Shown here: positions 5,231 to 24,143 of the stretch, in pieces
Position numbering within the stretch: position 1 is the first letter of the stretch
Layout: every line of letters starts with the position of its first letter
NCBI GenBank assembly: GCA_002428445.1
Contig: DIWJ01000037.1
Span: 1-24,143 of the forward strand
Reading direction: 5' to 3'
Length of the DNA: 24,143 bases
Origin: Syntrophaceae bacterium UBA6109
GTDB taxonomy: Bacteria; Desulfobacterota; Syntrophia; Syntrophales; UBA6109
Translations under genes and position numbers: made by a program
The notes under the pieces: model-generated
What the model was told of the DNA's origin: nothing
Seen by the model: only the letters and a program-made list of their open reading frames with translations
Databases searched by the model: none

Positions 5231-7873
5231 GTGAAAGATGATCAAAAGACAAAGAAGCAGCTCGTAGGTGAACTGAGGGACTTACGTTCGCAAAATGCCG
5301 CGCTGGAAAAATCAGCAAGTCCAGAGAAATACAGGAGTCTGGTAGAAAATCTCAGAGATGTCATCTGTGAATTGGACAGTCAGGGTGTGATCCTTTATAT
5401 CAGTCCGGCCGTCCGGGATATGCTGGGATTTGACTCGACTGAAATCATCGGGAAGAACTTCACCGAGTTGGTGTATAAAGATGATCTGAGTCGTCTGGAG
5501 AAGTGGTATTCTGAGCTCCGCAAAGGTCGAGAATCTCCATCTGAGTATAGAATCATTGATAAATCCGGTGAGCCTAGATGGACGCAGACGCGAGTCAGAC
5601 CAATCATGGAAGACAATCAGTTCAGGGGTGCCCGCGGAATACTCTTGGACGTAACGAAACAAAAGCAGGCGGAGGAAGCACTTAACAAGGCCAAGACATT
5701 ACTAGATAAAACATTTTCCAGCATAGAGGAAGCAATTATTATAGTAGATTCAAACACTCGAAGGATCATTGCTTGCAATCACGCGACAGAGGTTATCTTC
5801 GGCTTTGGAGAGAAAGACCTGATTGGTTGCAGCACCGATGTCTTGCATGTGGATAAATTATCGTACGAACTTTTTGGTCAAGAACTCTTTCCTGCTCTGG
5901 ACGCAAATGGAGTGTTTCGTACCGAATTTCAAATGAGACGAAAAGACGGAAGCGTCTTTCCCACCGAGAATACGGTAACAGAAATTCTCGATGACTTAGG
6001 CCACCGGACCAGTGTCGTAAGTTTGGTCCGCGACATTACCGACCGCAGGATGGCCGCGAAAAAATTGAAGCAAACAAACATCTTTCTTGATTCGATCATC
6101 GAGAATATTCCGAATATGATCTTCCTCAAGAATGCCAGAGATCTCCGGTTCATCCGGTTGAACCGGGCGGGAGAGGATCTGCTGGGTTATTCTAGGGACA
6201 ACCTACTGGGGAAGAGCGATTACGATTTCTTTCCAAAGGAACAGGCCGACCACTTTACGAAGAAGGATCGGGAGGTTCTAAACGGAAAGGAGGTTGTGGA
6301 TATCCCGGAAGAATCGCTGCAGACCCGCACCAAGGGAGAGCGCATCGTGCACACAAAGAAGGTGCCGCTCCTGGACGAGAAAGGAGAACCCGAGTTTCTA
6401 CTTGGGATCTCGGAGGACATCACCGAGCGTAATAAGATGGACGAGAAGCTGCGGCAACGTGACATCCAACTAAAGAAACTTACTTCCTGGGCGCCCGGAA
6501 TGATGTATCAGTTTACGAAGAGGACTGACGGAACATTATGCGTGCCGTTCACCACAGAAGCTGTCAAAGATATTTTTGGATGTTCACCAGAAGATATACG
6601 CGAGGATTATTCTCCAATTGCCAGAGTAATATTGCCCGAGGATTTAGATAAAGTTATTGACTCCATTGAATACTCAGCCAAACATCTGACTATCTGGGCA
6701 TTGGAATATAGAGTACAGATTCCGGGTCAATCAATCAGGTGGATATTAGGCAAATCAACACCCGAGAAGTTGGCTGATGGTAGCATAACCTGGTATGGCT
6801 TCAATACTGACATCACCGAGACCAAGAAGGCGGAGGAGGCGCTGCGGCATGAAAAGATACTTTATGAGGATTTGGTAACCACTCAACCCTCAGGCGTTTA
6901 CCGCTTGCGTGTCAAGTTCCGCGGCGATTGGCAAGCAGAAAAATGGAGATCGATGATGGAATCTACGTATTCCGTTGATATGGCCAGTGACCGCTATTGC
7001 AACATTTTAGGCATATCACACGAAGAGTTCGTAGCCAATCCTGGGGTCGTACCTGATAGGATCCATCCTGACGATAAACAGGATTTCAACGCGAAAAACG
7101 CGCAAGCGATGACCAGTCTGAGTCCTTTTACATGGGAGGGGCGAATAACCCGCCATCACCAAACCAGATGGGTTCATCTTGAATCAATTCCCCGTGTGCT
7201 AGATTCCGAAACTGTTCTCTGGACGGGCATTGTTTATGATATCACCGACCGCAAGCGGACGGAGGAGCATCTCCAGCAGACCCTCGGAAGTCTCAGGAAG
7301 GCTGTTGCAACCACCATTCAGGTCATGGTGTCTGCCGTAGAAGCAAGAGATCCCTATACCGCTGGTCACCAGGTTCGAGTTGCCGATCTTGCCCGTGCTA
7401 TTGCCACAGAGATGGGACTGCCCCAAGAGCAAATCAATGGCATCCATATGGCCGGCACCATCCATGACCTTGGAAAACTGTCCATCCCCGCGGAGATATT
7501 ATCCAAACCGACGAAGCTGTCGGAAAACGAGTTTTCCCTAATTAAAGAACACTCAAGGGGTGGATACGAGATTCTGAAGAACGTGGAATCCCCGTGGCCG
7601 CTTGCACAAATTGTCTATCAGCATCATGAACGGATGGATGGTTCAGGCTATCCCAGAAATCTGAAAGGGAATGACATTCTGATAGAGGCCCGCATTATGG
7701 CTGTTGCTGACGTGGTGGAATCCATGGCTTCACACCGACCTTATCGTCCAGCTATAGGCATTGAGGCAGCCCTTGAGGAGATCGAAAAGAATAAGGGAAT
7801 CCTTTATGACGACGCGGTTGCAGATGCCTGCCTGAGACTATTCCGGGAAAAAGGGTTTCAACTTCTATCTTGA
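5231..7873 (+). CDS. multi-PAS HD-GYP cyclic-di-GMP phosphodiesterase (motif intact)
   Basis: This 880-residue cytoplasmic protein shows no membrane segment or signal peptide. After a short coiled coil come five PAS/PAC sensor units at about 33-150, 155-280, 282-405, 412-540 and 545-680, several ending in DITE/DITD linkers. Residues ~690-880 are an HD-GYP domain with HDLGK (His745-Asp746) and HHERMDGSGYP (His798 onward), the full metal-binding and signature motif. It should hydrolyse cyclic-di-GMP to pGpG or GMP, so the PAS array probably tunes second-messenger levels. The start is GTG 5231 behind a weak GGTGA; upstream in-frame codons offer nothing better. The stop is 60 bases before the preferred start of the next HD-GYP gene, so the pair is probably one transcript. 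Confidence 0.9.
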   Translation: MKDDQKTKKQLVGELRDLRSQNAALEKSASPEKYRSLVENLRDVICELDSQGVILYISPAVRDMLGFDSTEIIGKNFTELVYKDDLSRLEKWYSELRKGRESPSEYRIIDKSGEPRWTQTRVRPIMEDNQFRGARGILLDVTKQKQAEEALNKAKTLLDKTFSSIEEAIIIVDSNTRRIIACNHATEVIFGFGEKDLIGCSTDVLHVDKLSYELFGQELFPALDANGVFRTEFQMRRKDGSVFPTENTVTEILDDLGHRTSVVSLVRDITDRRMAAKKLKQTNIFLDSIIENIPNMIFLKNARDLRFIRLNRAGEDLLGYSRDNLLGKSDYDFFPKEQADHFTKKDREVLNGKEVVDIPEESLQTRTKGERIVHTKKVPLLDEKGEPEFLLGISEDITERNKMDEKLRQRDIQLKKLTSWAPGMMYQFTKRTDGTLCVPFTTEAVKDIFGCSPEDIREDYSPIARVILPEDLDKVIDSIEYSAKHLTIWALEYRVQIPGQSIRWILGKSTPEKLADGSITWYGFNTDITETKKAEEALRHEKILYEDLVTTQPSGVYRLRVKFRGDWQAEKWRSMMESTYSVDMASDRYCNILGISHEEFVANPGVVPDRIHPDDKQDFNAKNAQAMTSLSPFTWEGRITRHHQTRWVHLESIPRVLDSETVLWTGIVYDITDRKRTEEHLQQTLGSLRKAVATTIQVMVSAVEARDPYTAGHQVRVADLARAIATEMGLPQEQINGIHMAGTIHDLGKLSIPAEILSKPTKLSENEFSLIKEHSRGGYEILKNVESPWPLAQIVYQHHERMDGSGYPRNLKGNDILIEARIMAVADVVESMASHRPYRPAIGIEAALEEIEKNKGILYDDAVADACLRLFREKGFQLLS

Positions 7874-7933
7874 GAGCAAAGATCATCAAGTATGAGCACT
7901 CATTGTGCCCATAAACCGTGGGCAGGGGGGGAA

Positions 7934-9856
7934 ATGATTGGAAAGATTCGCACTCCCAGATTAGGGATTTTTCTAAATGTCGGCATTGGCATTGTATTCA
8001 TTATTGCTGCTGTTATCATTATCATAATCGTAAATTACAGCATGCGCCAACAAGCGCACATCGAGGCGCAAGCAAAAGCCCGCATCATCCTCGACAGGAA
8101 CCTTGCCACCCATACCTACTTCTCGGAGATTATGAAACCCAGTATTTTCGCCTGGAGTGAGCCATTCCGGTCAAAGGAATACTTCGACCACACGTGGATG
8201 TCCTCAACCTATGCGATACGCGAGATTGAGAAGTACTTCAAGTCTCTCAATCCTTCAGGATATTCCTTTAAAGATGCTGCCATAGATGCGAGGAGTCCTG
8301 AAAATGAAGCAGATGAATATGAGCGCGTATTTCTTGAGAAATTGGCTATGGACAAGAAACTGGAATCCGATATCACGGTCCGTAACATTGATGGAAAGCC
8401 CTATCTCGTTGTTTTGAGAAAAGGCGAGGTCATGGAGGCATCCTGTCTTCGATGCCATAGTACTCCCCAAAATGCCCCCAAAGGATTGACCGATCATTAC
8501 GGTTCGGAAAGGAGTTTTAACCGCAAGGCAGGCGATGCGGTCAGCGCTGTTTCCCTGCGCATTCCTCTCTCGGAAGCCTATGCAGCGGCAAATATCTTTT
8601 CCTTAAAGCTTTCCGCCATCCTGATCGGCATCCTTATCTGCATTTTTACCATTCAATACTGGTTTTACAGACGTTACCTTCTGGAACCACTGAATGTCAT
8701 GCGGGACAAAGCGAAAAAGATTGCAACACATGAAGATCATCTGGGCGAACAAATCCCTGAACCGTTTGGAAGAGAATTAACCGAACTCACGGCCAGTTTT
8801 AATGCAATGTCGGTAAAGCTCCGTCATGAGAGAAATCATCTGGAAGAACTTGTTGATCACCGAACGGAAGAGTTGCGTAAAGAGAAAGGTTTTGCCGAAA
8901 GCCTGATTCAAACAGCACAAGCCATTGTCTTGGTCCTCGATACAACAGGGTATATTGTCAGTATCAATCCCTACATGGAAGAGATCTCGGGCTACCGATT
9001 GGAGGAGGTTCAGGGGAAGGATTGGTTCTCTACGTTCTTACCGGAGCGTGATCGAAATTCAATAAGAGAACTGTTTCTCACAGCCATTGGTAACATTCAT
9101 ACACAGGGTAATGTCAATCCAATCGTGACGAAGGACGGTCGTGAAATTGATATTGAATGGAGCGACAAGACCCTCAAGGATGAGAAGGGTAACGTGTTAG
9201 GCTTACTCTCAATTGGACAAGACATCACCGAACGCAAACGGGCGGAGATAGCTCTCCAGGAGAGCCATACCAGGTTGGAGAGAAACCTGAAGGGCACAAT
9301 TGATGTCATCTCTGAAACGATTGAAGCGAAGGGTCCCTATGCTCCCGGTCACCATCGGCATGTATCGACTTTAACGTCTGCAATCGCCCGGGAGTTGGGA
9401 CTAACCGGTTTTCAGGTGCAGGGCATCGAACTGGCGGCGGCCGTTTATGACATCGGCCTGATGACGATCCCCATCGAATTTCTCCAAGATAGCGAACGGT
9501 TGGACGGTGTCAAATTGACCCTGTATCAAGGCTACCCCAAAACCGGACATGACGCCCTAAAAAAGATTGAATTTCCTTGGCCAATTGCAGAGATCATTCT
9601 CCAGCATCGAGAGTGTTATGACGGATCAGGTTTCCCACAGGGGATAAGAGGCGAAGAGATCCTTATTGAGGCCAGGATTCTGGCGGTTGCCAATGCCATC
9701 GAGGACTTAACGACCCACAAGAGTTTCAGGAAGGCCTTTCCTGTAAATGAGGTTTTGGAAAAAATATCAGCCCATAGCGGCACAAAATACGACCCCGATG
9801 TCGTGGCTGCATGCCTGAGGCTTTTCAAGGAGAAGGGCTATAATATGGAAGGCTGA
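7934..9856 (+). CDS. membrane c-type haem sensor with PAS and degenerate HD-GYP domain
   Basis: The preferred start is ATG 7934, behind a G-rich AGGGGGGG; ATG 7892 would add 14 residues. Numbered from 7934 (640 residues): transmembrane segment ~9-33; a periplasmic domain of the DUF3365/Tll0287 haem-sensor kind to ~220 with CLRCH (Cys171, Cys174, His175); transmembrane segment ~223-244; HAMP ~248-304; PAS ~320-441; HD-GYP-like domain ~450-636. In that last domain HDxGK has become YDIGL (Tyr505-Asp506), HHExxDGxGYP has become HRECYDGSGFP, and the next conserved His (KEHS in the neighbour) is Tyr. Hydrolysis of cyclic-di-GMP is therefore unlikely. It may bind the nucleotide or regulate the active HD-GYP protein encoded just upstream. 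Domains are clear; the partnership is inference. Confidence 0.86.
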   Translation: MIGKIRTPRLGIFLNVGIGIVFIIAAVIIIIIVNYSMRQQAHIEAQAKARIILDRNLATHTYFSEIMKPSIFAWSEPFRSKEYFDHTWMSSTYAIREIEKYFKSLNPSGYSFKDAAIDARSPENEADEYERVFLEKLAMDKKLESDITVRNIDGKPYLVVLRKGEVMEASCLRCHSTPQNAPKGLTDHYGSERSFNRKAGDAVSAVSLRIPLSEAYAAANIFSLKLSAILIGILICIFTIQYWFYRRYLLEPLNVMRDKAKKIATHEDHLGEQIPEPFGRELTELTASFNAMSVKLRHERNHLEELVDHRTEELRKEKGFAESLIQTAQAIVLVLDTTGYIVSINPYMEEISGYRLEEVQGKDWFSTFLPERDRNSIRELFLTAIGNIHTQGNVNPIVTKDGREIDIEWSDKTLKDEKGNVLGLLSIGQDITERKRAEIALQESHTRLERNLKGTIDVISETIEAKGPYAPGHHRHVSTLTSAIARELGLTGFQVQGIELAAAVYDIGLMTIPIEFLQDSERLDGVKLTLYQGYPKTGHDALKKIEFPWPIAEIILQHRECYDGSGFPQGIRGEEILIEARILAVANAIEDLTTHKSFRKAFPVNEVLEKISAHSGTKYDPDVVAACLRLFKEKGYNMEG

Positions 9857-11712: not shown

Positions 11713-11789
11713 TGGCGCGCCCACCTGGGTTCGAACCAGGGGCCTTCGGATTCGTAGTCCGACGCTCTATCCAGCTGAGCTATGGGCGC
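11713..11789 (-). tRNA. tRNA-Arg(ACG)
   Basis: A full 77-base cloverleaf: acceptor GCGCCCA/TGGGCGC, discriminator G, encoded CCA, D-arm GCTC..GAGC, anticodon stem TCGGA/TCCGA with loop CTACGAA (anticodon ACG), and T-stem CCTGG/CCAGG with TTCGAAC loop. A34 is expected to be deaminated to inosine to read CGU, CGC and CGA. Fragments at 2837 and 10047 copy its anticodon region, so it was probably an integration target. Last tRNA of the serS run. Confidence 0.95.
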
Positions 11790-11802
11790 GCTGTGTTCAA
11801 TA

Positions 11803-11897
11803 TGGCGGAGAGAGCGGGATTTGAACCCGCGGTACACCTTTAAGGGGCGTACAATCGCTTAGCAGGCGATCGCTTTCGGCCACTCAGCCATCTCTCC
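11803..11897 (-). tRNA. tRNA-Ser(GCT)
   Basis: A class II tRNA of 95 bases with a long variable arm, acceptor GGAGAGA/TCTCTCC, encoded CCA, T-loop TTCAAAT and anticodon loop CTGCTAA (GCT), reading AGC/AGU. It is 13 bases upstream of tRNA-Arg and ~100 bases downstream of the other tRNA-Ser, same strand. Confidence 0.95.
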
Positions 11898-12000
11898 GCG
11901 TGGTCGACGATGATGCGGCTCCGCTCCGCTTTCCCGAAGCCGCTTTCGGCCCTGCTTCCGGGGAACTTCTCGGAGACGCATCCTTTCCATCTCAGTAATC

Positions 12001-12086
12001 TGGCGGAGGGAGCAGGATTCGAACCCGCGAACCTTTCGGTCTGCGGTTTTCAAGACCGCCGCCATAGACCACTCGGCCATCCCTCC
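12001..12086 (-). tRNA. tRNA-Ser(TGA)
   Basis: A class II tRNA of 86 bases, acceptor GGAGGGA/TCCCTCC, encoded CCA, anticodon stem GCGGT/ACCGC with loop CTTGAAA (TGA), reading UCN codons. It begins only 19 bases after the serS stop on the same strand, so it is very likely cut from the serS transcript. About 100 bases with no evident feature separate it from tRNA-Ser(GCT). Confidence 0.95.
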
Positions 12087-20499: not shown

Positions 20500-21108
20500 C
20501 TACTGGAAAGAGGATACATCTCCTTTCCCGGCCCTCAGGACCTCGATCACGTCGTCCACGAGGCTGATGACGCTCGAAGGCTCCGGCGCGATCACGCCGC
20601 CGTCGAGGATGATGTCCACTCGCTTGCCATACTGTTCCGCGATCTCGCGGGGGTCGCTCATCAACTCTCCGTCGTGGGACTCCACGGACGTGCTGATGAT
20701 CGGCTGGCCGAATTCCTGGACCAGCATCAGGCAGATGCGGTTGTCGGGAACGCGGATGCCGGTGGTCTGACGCTTGGGCAGAATGATCTTCGGCACGAGA
20801 CGGGAGGCCTGGAGAATGAAGGTGTAGGGGCCGGGCAGGAGCCGCTTCATGGTCCGGTAGGCGTAGTCCGTCACGAGCGCGTAGCGGCTGATGTCCTTGA
20901 GGTCGGCGCAGACGAAACTGAGCGGCTGCTTCTTGTCGCGGTGTTTGATCTCGTAGATCCGCTCGATCGCGTGCTTGTTGTAGAGATCGCAGCCCAGGCC
21001 GTAGACCGTGTCCGTCGGATAGATGATGAGACCTCCGTCCCGGAGGACCTCGACGGCCTTCCGGATCAGGCGCAACTGCGGATTGTCGCTGTGGACCGAC
21101 AGGATCAT
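20500..21108 (-). CDS. yciO: Sua5/YciO/YrdC family protein, YciO-like
   Basis: This 202-residue protein has the YrdC-like fold. YPTDTVYGLGCD near residue 30 is the nucleotide/threonine-binding signature, and KHRDKKQPLSF is the basic loop. The length and the start DNPQLRLIRKAVEVLRDGG match the YciO subfamily rather than TsaC or two-domain Sua5. TsaC/Sua5 make threonylcarbamoyl-AMP for the t6A modification of tRNA; YciO's exact task is less settled. It lies between cimA and rng on the same strand, with a 13-bp inverted repeat overlapping its ribosome-binding region. Confidence 0.9.
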   Translation of the reverse strand: MILSVHSDNPQLRLIRKAVEVLRDGGLIIYPTDTVYGLGCDLYNKHAIERIYEIKHRDKKQPLSFVCADLKDISRYALVTDYAYRTMKRLLPGPYTFILQASRLVPKIILPKRQTTGIRVPDNRICLMLVQEFGQPIISTSVESHDGELMSDPREIAEQYGKRVDIILDGGVIAPEPSSVISLVDDVIEVLRAGKGDVSSFQ

Positions 21109-21166: not shown

Positions 21167-22762
21167 TCAACGAGCTTGTTTGTTGCGGTTGAGCCTGTCC
21201 TTGCTGAGCTTGTACTGGATGCTGTCCACCAGCGCATGCCAGCTCGCCTCGATGATGTTCGTCGAGACGCCGACCGTGCTCCAGATGTCGCGGTCGTCCT
21301 GTGAATCGAGCAACACGCGCACCTTCGCCGCCGTCCCTTCGCTGCCCTCCAGCGTGCGGACCTTGAAGTCCACCAGATGCATCTCGCGGATCTGCGGGTA
21401 GAACTTGGCCAGGGCCTTCCGCAGGGCGTGGTCGAGGGCATTGACGGGGCCGTTCCCTTCGGCCGCCGTCAGTTCCTCTTCCCCGCCGACGGAGACCTTC
21501 ACCATCGCCTGCGACAGTGACGCCCGGTCGCCCGTCTTCGAATTGAGGACCTGGAAGCACTCCAACCGGAAGGGTTCCTTGAAGGCGCCGGTGATCTTCT
21601 TGACCACCAGCGACAGAGAGCCGTCGGCGGCGTCGAAGGAATATCCTTCGTTCTCCATCTTCTTGATCTCCCGGACGATCTTCCGGCTGATCCGGGGATC
21701 GTCGCCGAGGGGAATCCCCAGTTCCCTGGCCTTGTAATCGATGTTGCTTTTTCCGGCCAGGTCCGAGACGAGAACGCGGCGCTCGTTGCCCACGCGCTCG
21801 GGGGCGATGTGCTCATAGGCGGCGCTGTTCTTGATGATGGCGCTGACGTGGACGCCCCCCTTGTGGGCGAAGGCGCTGCGCCCGACGAAGGGGCGGCTGC
21901 GAAGCGGTTTCACATTGGCCGTTTCGCTCACGAAGTTCGAAAGAGCGGTCAACTGCGGCAGGGAGGATTCGGGGAGACAGCGGAGGCCCATCTTCAGCTG
22001 CAGATTTGCGACGACCGGAATCAGGTCGGCGTTCCCGCATCGCTCCCCCAGGCCGTTGATCGTGCCCTGGACCATCCGCGCGCCCAGGCGGACCGCCGTG
22101 AGGGTGTTGGCGACGGCCAGGTCTCCATCGTTGTGGGTATGGATGCCGGTCCGTTCCGCGGGGATCAGCGACAGGACCTCTCCGGCGATGGCGGCGATCT
22201 CGTGCGGAAGCGTGCCGCCATTGGTATCGCACAGGACGATCCAGTCCGCGCCGGCGGAGAGCGCCGTCTCGACGGTCTTGCAGGCGTATTCCGGGGAGTT
22301 CTTGAAACCGTCGAAGAAGTGCTCGGCGTCGTAGACGACTTCCTTTCCCCGGGCCTTCAGGTATTCGACGGACTCCCGGATCATGAGGAGATTCTCCGCA
22401 AGCGGGATGTTCAGGATCTCGTGAAGATGGAGGTCCCAGGATTTGCCGAAGATGGTGACGACCGCCGTCCCCGCCTTCAGCAGGGTCTGGATGTTCCGGC
22501 ACCGGGAGGGGCGGGTCCGGGGCCTGCGGGTGCTGCCGAAAGCCGAGAGCTTCGCCTGCCGGAAGGGGGTGGCCTTGGCGAGCTCGAAGAAACGCATGTC
22601 CTTCGGATTGGAACCGGGCCATCCGCCTTCGATGTACGGAAATCCCAGTTCGTCGAGGCGCAGCGCGATCCGCAGTTTTTCCTCCGCGGAAAAGTTGATC
22701 CGCTCGCCCTGGTTCCCGTCGCGAAGCGTGGTGTCGTAGATCCTTACCGGTCTTTCTTTCAT
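21167..22762 (-). CDS. cimA: (R)-citramalate synthase
   Basis: This 531-residue enzyme condenses pyruvate with acetyl-CoA to (R)-citramalate, opening the threonine-independent route to isoleucine. It has the DRE-TIM metallolyase motifs: YDTTLRDGNQGE at the start, HTHNDGDLAVAN for metal binding, and NGLGERCGNADL. CRNIQTLLKAGTAVVTIFGKSWDLH is typical of CimA rather than LeuA or homocitrate synthase. The C-terminal ~130 residues are a LeuA-type allosteric domain, normally for feedback by isoleucine. The frame is open to 22837, but the ATG at 22762 follows GGAGG by five bases, and the extension would run through the attenuator hairpin. An Ile-rich leader peptide and terminator immediately upstream point to attenuation control. 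Confidence 0.94.
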   Translation of the reverse strand: MKERPVRIYDTTLRDGNQGERINFSAEEKLRIALRLDELGFPYIEGGWPGSNPKDMRFFELAKATPFRQAKLSAFGSTRRPRTRPSRCRNIQTLLKAGTAVVTIFGKSWDLHLHEILNIPLAENLLMIRESVEYLKARGKEVVYDAEHFFDGFKNSPEYACKTVETALSAGADWIVLCDTNGGTLPHEIAAIAGEVLSLIPAERTGIHTHNDGDLAVANTLTAVRLGARMVQGTINGLGERCGNADLIPVVANLQLKMGLRCLPESSLPQLTALSNFVSETANVKPLRSRPFVGRSAFAHKGGVHVSAIIKNSAAYEHIAPERVGNERRVLVSDLAGKSNIDYKARELGIPLGDDPRISRKIVREIKKMENEGYSFDAADGSLSLVVKKITGAFKEPFRLECFQVLNSKTGDRASLSQAMVKVSVGGEEELTAAEGNGPVNALDHALRKALAKFYPQIREMHLVDFKVRTLEGSEGTAAKVRVLLDSQDDRDIWSTVGVSTNIIEASWHALVDSIQYKLSKDRLNRNKQAR

Positions 22763-22770
22763 GGCTTCCT

Positions 22771-22813
22771 CCGAAAATAAAAAACCGTTACCAGGAGGCC
22801 TGATAACGGTTTT
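22771..22813 (-). terminator. attenuator terminator hairpin before cimA
   Basis: In the leftward transcript AAAACCGTTATCAGG (22813-22799) pairs with CCTGGTAACGGTTTT (22795-22781), a 15-bp stem with one G-U pair and a CCT loop. TTTTTTATTTT follows (the T run overlaps the lower stem). It lies between the leader peptide stop and the cimA ribosome-binding site, so it would end transcription before cimA unless disrupted. Confidence 0.88.
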
Positions 22814-22833
22814 GCTGTGAGTGTGTGCGGATG

Positions 22834-22929
22834 TCACGAAGCGGCGGTCAGGTCTCCACGGTATGCGGGCCCGGTAATGATGCCCGCGGGAATAATGGAT
22901 ATGACGATGCCGATCGTGATCTTCGTCAT
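22834..22929 (-). CDS. Ile-rich leader peptide of the cimA attenuator
   Basis: This 31-codon frame starts at ATG 22929, with AGGA eight bases upstream, and ends TGA at 22836-22834. It encodes eight isoleucines (positions 4, 6, 8, 10, 12, 13, 17, 18) plus Val9, all in the first 18 codons, using ATC, ATT and one ATA. Thr is also frequent. No such density is expected by chance, and the product is too short for a normal enzyme. The codons sit 27 or so bases after the expected transcription start and ~20 bases before a terminator hairpin. By analogy with the leaders of ilv, leu, thr and his operons, ribosome stalling at Ile codons when Ile-tRNA is scarce should allow readthrough into cimA. Too short for most gene finders. 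Confidence 0.82.
   Translation of the reverse strand: MTKITIGIVISIIPAGIITGPAYRGDLTAAS
22865..22887 (-). promoter_or_regulatory. pause-type hairpin within the leader peptide
   Basis: In the transcript GCGGGC (codons 15-16) pairs with GCCCGC (codons 20-22) around an 11-base loop that holds the Ile17-Ile18 codons. A ribosome stalled at the Ile run would melt it. CCTGA in codons 26-28 is also complementary to TCAGG in the terminator's 5' arm, a possible short antiterminator contact. Pairings are seen; their role is inference. Confidence 0.45.
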
Positions 22930-22962
22930 GCTGCCTGTCCTTCCCCCTTTCGAGGAGGGTTC

Positions 22963-22991
22963 CCTATAGAATGCCGCCTTTTATTTGTCAA
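22963..22991 (-). promoter_or_regulatory. sigma70-type promoter of the leader-cimA transcript
   Basis: On the minus strand TTGACA (22991-22986) and TATAGG (22968-22963) are 17 bases apart. Transcription would start near 22956, giving a short leader before the leader-peptide ATG. The promoter begins only five bases after the polX terminator's T run. Confidence 0.75.
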
Positions 22992-22996
22992 CAGCT

Positions 22997-23034
22997 AAAA
23001 AAATCCCGCCCGGCTCTCCGGGGCAACCCGGCGG
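22997..23034 (-). terminator. terminator of polX
   Basis: Reading leftward from the polX stop, CCGCC (23034-23030) pairs with GGCGG (23010-23006), with an internal CCCGG/CCGGG stem. The structure is followed by ATTTTTTT (seven T at 23003-22997). It is a standard intrinsic terminator 13 bases past the gene, separating polX from cimA. Confidence 0.75.
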
Positions 23035-23046
23035 CGGATGCGCCGG

Positions 23047-24143
23047 TCACGCCGGTTTCCTGAGCCAGGCAAGGACATCGCCGAGGCTTCGCGTATTGAG
23101 GACGTTTTCCGAGCCGCACCAGCCGCGGCGCGCCGTGCCGACGCCGAAGCGCATCAGGGAAAGGTGGGCGGCGGCATGGGCGTCGGTTCCGATCGCGAGC
23201 ATGACCCCCCGTTCGCGGGCCTGGCGGATATGCGCGCCGTTGAGGTCCAGGCGGTCCGGCATGGCGTTGATTTCCAGCGCCTTGCCGAAACGGGCGGCTG
23301 CGGCGAGGACGGCTTCCATGTCCAGGTTGGCGGGTTCGCGCCGGCCGATGAGGCGCGAGGTCGGATGGGCGAGGATATCCACGTGGGGATTTTCCAGGGC
23401 CGCGACAATGCGCCGCGTCATTTTCTGCTCGTTCTGGTCCAGGGAGGAGTGGACGGCGGCGACGACGACATCGAGTTCCGCAAGCGCTTCATCGGGAAGG
23501 GCGAGCCGTCCGTCGGCCCTGATGTTGACCTCGACACCCGCGAGGAGCCGCGTTCGCTTCCGCGCGCCGTTGACCGCGCGGATGTGCGCCGCCTGGTCGC
23601 GGAGCCGGTCGGCGGCAAGGCCGTTGGCGATCCCGAGGCCCGCCGAGTGGTCGGTGACGACGAGGTACTCGTAGCCGAGGGCCTCGGCGGCGGCCGCCAT
23701 CTCCTCGATCGTTGCCTGCCCGTCGCTCCAGTTGCTGTGGGTGTGGAAGTCTCCGCGGATGTCCCCGGCCTTCAGGAGCCTGGGCAGCATTGCCCGGGCG
23801 GCAAGGTCGATTTCGCCCTGGTTTTCCCTCACTTCCGGGGGGATGAAGGAGAGGCCCAGCCGGCCGTAGAAGGACGCCTCGTCGGTGAAGGTCTCGATTT
23901 TTCCCATGTCGTCCGCGATCCCGTATTCGCTCAGGCTGAGCCCCATCTTCTGGGCGAAGGCGCGCAGGGCGATGTTGTGGTCGCGGCTTCCGGTGAAGTG
24001 CTGGAGCAGCGATCCGAAGGATTCGTGCGCGACGATCCGCATGTCCGCCTGGAGGTTTCCCGCGAGAAGGACGCTGGCCTTCGTCGTTCCCCTGGCGAGC
24101 ACCTCCGCCACCTGCGGCAGGCCGGCGAAGGCGGCGATGGCCG
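23047..24143 (-). CDS. polX: PolX family DNA polymerase/3'-5' exonuclease, C-terminal part (gene runs off the window)
   Basis: The frame stays open to the window edge, so the gene is cut at its 5' end. What is seen (about 365 codons) starts in the end of the polymerase-beta-like part: LPQVAEVLARGTTKASVLLAGNLQADMR, with the LQADMR strand resembling the palm region. From ~residue 120 of the visible 354-residue frame it is a PHP domain with metal ligands in DFHTHSNWSDG, VTDHS, the VHSS strand, ILAHPTSR and GTDAHAAAHL. Full-length bacterial PolX is ~570-580 residues; it fills short gaps in base-excision repair and has PHP-based 3'-5' exonuclease activity. An apparent GTG start at 24111 is internal. 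Confidence 0.9.
   Translation of the reverse strand, partial: AIAAFAGLPQVAEVLARGTTKASVLLAGNLQADMRIVAHESFGSLLQHFTGSRDHNIALRAFAQKMGLSLSEYGIADDMGKIETFTDEASFYGRLGLSFIPPEVRENQGEIDLAARAMLPRLLKAGDIRGDFHTHSNWSDGQATIEEMAAAAEALGYEYLVVTDHSAGLGIANGLAADRLRDQAAHIRAVNGARKRTRLLAGVEVNIRADGRLALPDEALAELDVVVAAVHSSLDQNEQKMTRRIVAALENPHVDILAHPTSRLIGRREPANLDMEAVLAAAARFGKALEINAMPDRLDLNGAHIRQARERGVMLAIGTDAHAAAHLSLMRFGVGTARRGWCGSENVLNTRSLGDVLAWLRKPA

Follow-up and report, generated by a model that had tools for sequence, protein, structure and literature searches.

A putative isoleucine-responsive leader-peptide attenuator upstream of the citramalate synthase gene cimA in a Syntrophaceae bacterium

The citramalate synthase gene cimA is very probably controlled by a ribosome-mediated transcription attenuator that senses isoleucine in the 24,143-nucleotide stretch of Syntrophaceae bacterium UBA6109 DNA analysed here (the window). 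An isoleucine-responsive attenuator of cimA had been put forward in the initial annotation of this DNA, and its recurrence among relatives now supports that reading, together with the parts of the region, their order, spacing and conservation, the covariation of both stems and the match between the sensor amino acid and the pathway. From these sequence features we infer the start of transcription, the translation of the leader, the stalling of the ribosome and the readthrough of the terminator.

According to the proposed mechanism, transcription would begin at the promoter-like site, with immediate translation of the leader peptide. When Ile-tRNA is ample, the ribosome would reach the leader stop codon and cover region 2, region 3 would be free to pair with region 4, and the resulting terminator would switch cimA off. 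When Ile-tRNA is short, the ribosome would stall in the isoleucine run and region 2 would be open; regions 2 and 3 would then pair before region 4 has been made, no terminator would form and cimA would be transcribed.

In this class of bacteria cimA is likely the main entry to isoleucine and a sensible point of control. The threonine deaminase models TIGR01127 and TIGR01124 scored above the cut-off in 4 and 0 of 154 class genomes, respectively. Weaker matches to the PALP superfamily (E ≤ 0.001), which could be threonine deaminases, occurred in 151 of the 154, and thus a second isoleucine route is possible. If our reading is correct, the threonine-independent (citramalate) route to isoleucine gains a regulatory switch of its own, and leader-peptide attenuation is extended to anaerobes known largely from metagenome-assembled genomes.

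Organization of the region upstream of cimA

On the minus strand, the promoter-like site, the leader ORF and the terminator hairpin follow one another in this order between the end of a polX-like gene at 23047 and the cimA start at 22762 (Table 1). The polX-like gene has a terminator-like hairpin of its own at 23022-23009, which suggests that a separate transcript begins with the leader. The promoter with a 17-nt spacing that had been annotated earlier was recovered (TTGACA-17-TATAGG), its 10 of 12 consensus bases comparing with 7.4 in shuffles. Across 113 loci the best promoter-like site had on average 9.7 consensus bases versus 8.2 in shuffled sequences, and 69 of the 113 reached 10/12. A stricter promoter scan listed nothing at this site of the window because it requires the final T in the -10 element. 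The leader RNA of the window was predicted to fold more stably than 199 of 200 shuffled sequences (z -3.55).

Table 1. Positions of the leader elements and neighbouring genes in the window.
Feature	Position	Strand	Basis or remark
Promoter-like site, TTGACA (22991-22986), 17-nt spacer, TATAGG (22968-22963)	22963..22991	-	10/12 consensus bases
Leader peptide ORF, 31 codons, MTKITIGIVISIIPAGIITGPAYRGDLTAAS	22834..22929	-	8 Ile in codons 4-18
Sensor stretch, first to last Ile codon (ATC ATC ATC ATA ATT ATT ATC ATT)	22876..22920	-	
Region 2 (antiterminator 5' side), CCTGACCGCCG, within the final leader codons	22842..22852	-	conserved place
Region 3, CCGTTATCAGG, common to antiterminator and terminator	22799..22809	-	commonest form, 64/125 loci
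Intrinsic terminator hairpin (regions 3 and 4), 15 pairs, then TTATTTT	22781..22813	-	scan; covariation in 40 aligned loci
GGAGG ribosome-binding site of cimA	22768..22772	-	by eye
cimA, citramalate synthase, 531 aa	21167..22762	-	TIGR00977, 728 bits (cut-off 450)
tsaC/sua5-like gene, 58 nt behind cimA	20500..21108	-	TIGR00057, 222 bits

The isoleucine codons of the leader ORF occupy positions 4, 6, 8, 10, 12, 13, 17 and 18, which confirms the earlier count of eight within the first 18 codons of a 31-codon peptide. When all small ORFs of the window were compared (8-60 codons, longest per stop; n = 466), the leader ORF was the only one with at least 6 Ile in 18 codons, and when the 150 nt preceding the hairpin were shuffled 2000 times with dinucleotides preserved, no shuffle reached 8 Ile. 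Such a run of end-product codons in a short ORF between a promoter-like site and the gene was present both in the window and in its relatives. In addition, the ATA codon made up 283 of the 918 Ile codons in the leaders of 115 loci versus 273 of 1985 in the cimA bodies, hinting that a minor Ile tRNA may be part of the sensor.

The hairpin preceding cimA (15 pairs including one G-U, a 3-nt loop and a T tract) ends 18 nt from the cimA start, in agreement with the 15-bp terminator and U tract annotated directly before the gene. The number of terminator-like sites in positions 22500-23300 was not above that in shuffled sequences (2 versus a mean of 1.3), and therefore the case rests on the length, place and conservation of the hairpin.

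The order of cimA and the tsaC/sua5-like gene is matched in locus L002, and the two genes are presumably co-transcribed. Elsewhere in the window, a gene for a caspase-like domain protein (PF00656; 10355-11623, plus strand) lies near genes for sensor-like proteins with PAS and HD domains (5231-7873 and 7892-9856), and three tRNA genes, tRNA-Arg(acg), tRNA-Ser(gct) and tRNA-Ser(tga), stand directly behind serS (11713-12086, minus strand), so that the seryl-tRNA synthetase gene adjoins two serine tRNA genes.

Conservation and pairing of the leader elements

The genome-collection scan supplied the 80 best loci of 587 confirmed relatives. By whole-genome search, 131 of the 155 genomes searched from the class holding L002, a Syntrophaceae bacterium (presumably the class Syntrophia), had cimA, as did 211 of the 247 genomes drawn from the whole phylum. 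We compared 213 non-redundant upstream stretches by eye and scored 210 of 220 loci for the enrichment of all 20 amino acids in the leader against dinucleotide shuffles, 4 being too short and the rest duplicates. The scored loci were split at 61.5% cimA identity; for the 1.1-kb loci the identities rest on the N-terminal part of cimA. At or above this identity, 123 of 125 upstream regions, that of the window included, had a strong intrinsic terminator between the leader ORF and the first structural gene, and the most enriched leader residue in these 123 loci was Ile in 94, Leu in 8, Val in 2 and another residue in 4, with none in 15; the loci are related to one another and these counts are not independent. 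Below 61.5% identity a strong terminator was found in 8 of 85 loci, with Ile as the top residue in 5. The residues other than Ile and the lengths of the leader peptides varied among relatives when inspected by eye.

Among 37 distant cimA loci of the phylum, comprising the best-ranked of the phylum draw and hand-picked lower ones, none of the 36 readable ones combined an Ile leader with a terminator (the 37th had too little upstream sequence). In most of these loci a gene whose end reads like that of a putative aspartate kinase extended up to or near cimA, and in six loci the gene was a different one. Since the leaderless distant cimA mostly stands right behind another gene, the putative device appears to go with cimA where cimA opens a transcript of its own. 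The initial annotation had named the absence of an Ile-rich frame or a terminator from homologous cimA genes as the finding that would speak against attenuation; the close relatives favour the attenuator, and the expected conservation of Ile codons and stems thus held among them but not in more distant cimA.

Regions 2, 3 and 4 were similar to CCTGATAATGG, CCGTTATCAGG and CCTGATAACGG, respectively. Pairing was evaluated in 125 loci, namely 136 at ≥59% identity minus 11 without a fitting terminator arm, a set which differs from that used for residue enrichment. Besides the form listed in Table 1, the terminator arm had a second main form, CCGCTGCCAGG, in 33 loci. Region 2 tended to change with the arm: leaders ending in GLIM (CCTGATAATG) accompanied CCGTTATCAGG, and those ending in GGLAVE (CCTGGCAGTG or CCTGGCCGTG) accompanied CCGCTGCCAGG. 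At least 9 of 11 antiterminator pairs could form in 104 of the 125 loci versus 14 of 125 for a control stretch; region 2 was taken to be whichever 11-mer of a 70-nt stretch paired best, which favours pairing, and the control stretch was handled in the same way. In 107 of 124 loci (≥58% identity, terminator present, ORF with at least 3 Ile), no more than 5 of 100 shuffles, which keep base composition only, gave a duplex as good as or better than the antiterminator. Moreover, region 2 is part of the reading frame in some leaders, and in others it follows the stop codon and still pairs, which points to selection on the RNA. A protecting 1:2 hairpin found modest support: it ranked among the best 3 of 60 shuffles in 39 of 115 loci, and the window ranked 32 of 60.

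Covariation was measured in 40 diverse loci out of the 125 after loci with fewer than 8 pairs (3 of 125: L095, L167 and L159), near-identical loci and those with spans outside 60-95 nt had been dropped. In the terminator stem 95.8% of the cells were paired and 42 cells were changed on both sides (shuffled mean 12.8); the corresponding values for the antiterminator stem were 89.3% and 28 cells (shuffled mean 11.6). None of 500 shuffles reached the pairing, the both-side cell counts or the covariation scores of either stem, so that on three of the five measures both stems covary, a check that the initial annotation had proposed. The remaining two measures were weaker: the number of pairs changed on both sides was reached in 14 (terminator) and 3 (antiterminator) of 500 shuffles, and the number of pair types in 42 and 43 of 500. 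When either stem was slid by 1-3 columns, its pairing fell below 50%; the antiterminator slid by +3 equalled or exceeded the real one in both-side-changed pairs and pair types. Because the loci for this analysis were partly chosen for pairing, the comparison with the control stretch given above is the fairer figure.

The position of region 2 relative to the leader codons is consistent with control by a translating ribosome. The median distance from the last Ile codon to the beginning of region 2 is 19 nt, and region 2 extends to the vicinity of the stop codon (median, 5 nt before its end). We modelled stalling by removing the ribosome-covered stretch (assumed to reach 10 nt ahead of the A-site codon) and folding the rest up to region 3 in 114 loci; 97 loci without a leader or an arm were skipped, and L114 had no Ile codon far enough upstream. 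With the ribosome placed on the last Ile codon, the predicted 2:3 pairing had a mean of 0.82 and exceeded 0.5 in 102 of 114 loci; with the ribosome on the stop codon the mean was 0.03 and 4 loci exceeded 0.5, the value being zero by construction where the footprint covers region 2. With the assumed footprint, a ribosome at the stop codon would thus cover region 2, and one in the sensor run would leave it free.

The window's own copy pairs less well than those of its relatives. Its region 2 stands 28 nt before the hairpin (median 30 in relatives) and forms 8 of 11 pairs with region 3, the same number as the control stretch, and the 2:3 duplex, at about -7.4 kcal/mol, reached a pairing of 0.33 in the stalled model. 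An open search for an antiterminator in the window gave nothing above shuffles, 65 of 100 being as good, and we agree with the earlier view that the antiterminator is only partly resolved. At the same time, the CCTGA/TCAGG core and its position are kept. In the fold of the window, a segment around the leader start codon pairs with region 3. The window copy may therefore switch less sharply or use another pairing. As far as sequence comparison goes, the putative class of device is well supported by the relatives, and the exact antiterminator of the window copy is not.

An Ile-rich ORF was also noticed in L071 (BRC1 record), where MTGLTAYSIFISCGIIIGPPQVR overlaps a hairpin about 170-245 nt before cimA. 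Because of this overlap and the distance of both from cimA, the locus was set aside as a lead; the arrangement is possibly due to chance or unrelated.

Leaders of ilvB and leuA and the operon content of cimA loci

The upstream regions of ilvB and leuA were examined in the 30 best-scoring loci each from 59 searched genomes of the same class. Among the 26 ilvB loci with a terminator, the most enriched leader residue was Val in 16 and Ile in 3, and no residue stood out in 5; Leu was the top residue in 19 of the 26 leuA loci with a terminator (none in 5). Because these leaders come from the same lineage, were analysed with the same method and differ in the fitting amino acid, they serve as an internal control for the cimA leaders. 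By inspection, the ilvB upstream regions (L220-L249) have Val-rich leaders (e.g., ...VLVLVVVVLTGSAALYL), many with two successive and sometimes overlapping terminator-like hairpins (GCCGC...GCGGC twice), and the leuA upstream regions (L250-L279) have Leu-rich leaders with a well-conserved GGCCATGGGC...GCCCATGGCC-T terminator. In two ilvB loci (L242 and L245, of genomes G115 and G118, in which leuA is directly behind cimA) the leader is rich in Ile and has few Val codons (IIIIGVLIITSF...), in contrast to the Val-rich ilvB leaders of other loci.

The genes behind cimA were tabulated for 212 of the 220 loci, of which 95 had no leader and terminator by the rule of the table; for L112 and L213 the table holds the wrong ORF. 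The downstream sequence was readable in 99 of the 117 loci with a leader and a terminator, and leuA stood behind cimA in 21 of these. In 5 of the 21 the gap between cimA and leuA was long; all five had a separate Leu-rich ORF and a terminator before leuA, and their cimA leaders were rich in Ile and had 0-2 Leu per 12 residues. In 15 of the 16 short-gap loci, leuA was preceded by no Leu-rich ORF and by no terminator; the sixteenth, L025, has a hairpin before leuA and an Ile-only cimA leader. At least 3 Leu in 12 residues were counted in 14 of the 16 short-gap cimA leaders versus 8 of the 80 remaining non-ilvB loci (Fisher P = 1.3e-9, which is overstated because the loci are related); both are hand counts, and the split into short and long gaps was set after the table had been seen. 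In L010, L011 and L016 an ilvD-like gene and ilvB follow cimA, and Ile and Val codons occur together in the leader, with some Leu; ilvB was identified by tblastn in all three, and ilvD was tested in L010 and L016 and taken from a like protein start in L011. Exceptions were L120 and L121, which have Leu codons and no leu gene seen within 1.5 kb, and L007, which has Leu codons and leuC as the next gene.

The occurrence of Leu codons where leuA is close behind and of Val codons before ilvD-ilvB thus indicates that the sensor codons follow the operon content. We are reasonably confident that this class runs three separate leader-peptide attenuators (Ile for cimA, Val for ilvB and Leu for leuA) and that sensor codons are gained and lost with operon fusion. 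If so, a leuA fused behind cimA brings Leu codons and an ilvD-ilvB pair brings Val codons, and the leader becomes a readable record of what the operon produces. The Ile, Val and Leu leaders with their operon arrangements would then amount to a natural experiment in which the evolution of sensor codons can be followed as operons differ in content. This suggests the rule that leader codons could help to tell cimA from leuA among these look-alike synthases.

Alternative explanations and comparison with known systems

The hairpin by itself is a standard intrinsic terminator, and the antiterminator of the window is weak, which would fit a fixed terminator that merely insulates cimA from the upstream gene, the Ile-rich ORF being coincidental. 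However, a fixed terminator at a distance of 18 nt from the start codon would shut off cimA expression from every promoter that precedes the hairpin, the polX-like gene already has its own terminator-like hairpin, and the ORF, unmatched in the 2000 shuffles, recurs with the hairpin across relatives; we therefore regard insulation as exceedingly unlikely. It is also improbable, though slightly less so, that the ORF encodes a small functional hydrophobic peptide or that regulation takes a route other than termination. The runs of Ile, Leu and Val resemble membrane segments when judged by eye, and there is a precedent in Streptomyces coelicolor, where mutated leaders of similar appearance, those of ilvB and leuA, reportedly failed to act in the manner of classical attenuation (PMC1262725). 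These possibilities are difficult to reconcile with peptides whose non-Ile residues and lengths vary, whose last residues tend to go with the form of the pairing arm in the RNA (GLIM with CCGTTATCAGG and GGLAVE with CCGCTGCCAGG), whose region 2 in some leaders lies past the stop codon and still pairs, and whose sensor amino acid changes with the operon, as well as with the covariation of terminator and antiterminator.

A further explanation, which we consider doubtful but which deserves more weight, accepts attenuation in the group and holds that the copy in the window has decayed or employs another antiterminator, for example the leader-start segment that pairs with region 3 in the fold. The weak region 2 of the window and this alternative pairing speak for it, whereas the retained core and position and the residual 2:3 pairing in the stalled model speak against it.

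The proposed attenuator resembles those of the enterobacterial ilvGMEDA, ilvBN, leu and thr operons, which likewise have an ORF with codons for the end product, competing antiterminator and terminator structures, a U tract and the gene just behind. It differs from them in its target, which is cimA of the citramalate route, and in Ile as the main sensor where no leu or ilv genes follow cimA. T-box leaders respond to a shortage of charged tRNA as well, the same signal as in our reading of the cimA leader, and they bind the tRNA directly and need no ORF; a T-box element was considered for the window and rejected, as there was no match to the Rfam T-box model. None of the Rfam leader families matched in the window, and only tRNAs reached gathering scores in the loci of eight relatives; hits to mir-451 and RybB in the window were far below the gathering scores and were discarded. 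We found no cimA attenuator among the matches listed (titles and abstract starts) in the literature searched, most subscription papers lying outside it; the survey of attenuation in proteobacteria by Vitreschak and others (2004) would be the likeliest place for a precedent.

In the literature searched, citramalate synthase, attenuation and a leader peptide occurred together in one paper, with cimA only as a deletion (PMC13158618). Classical leader-peptide attenuators include those of trp, his, leu, thr, ilvGMEDA, ilvBN and pheA (PMC1183508). According to a comparative survey, the amino acid attenuators in Rfam were then only those for His, Leu, Thr and Trp, the Ile/Val and Phe motifs being described elsewhere, and that T-boxes occur in Geobacter (PMC3766115); T-box leaders of branched-chain genes in Bacillota are likewise described (PMC12452182). 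In Actinobacteria, leader peptides or RNA elements are reported at ilvB, leuA and trp operons in PMC1262725, in which the terms 'cimA' and 'citramalate' are absent, and reportedly also at ilvBNC of Corynebacterium (PMC11857589 and PMC10272879). The actinobacterial leaders resemble ours in placing leader ORFs before branched-chain amino acid genes outside the gammaproteobacteria, but they concern other genes, another lineage and other stems. Compared with these systems, the mechanism that the sequences suggest would be classical, and what would be new is the target gene, the lineage, isoleucine as the main sensor and sensor codons that follow the content of the operon.
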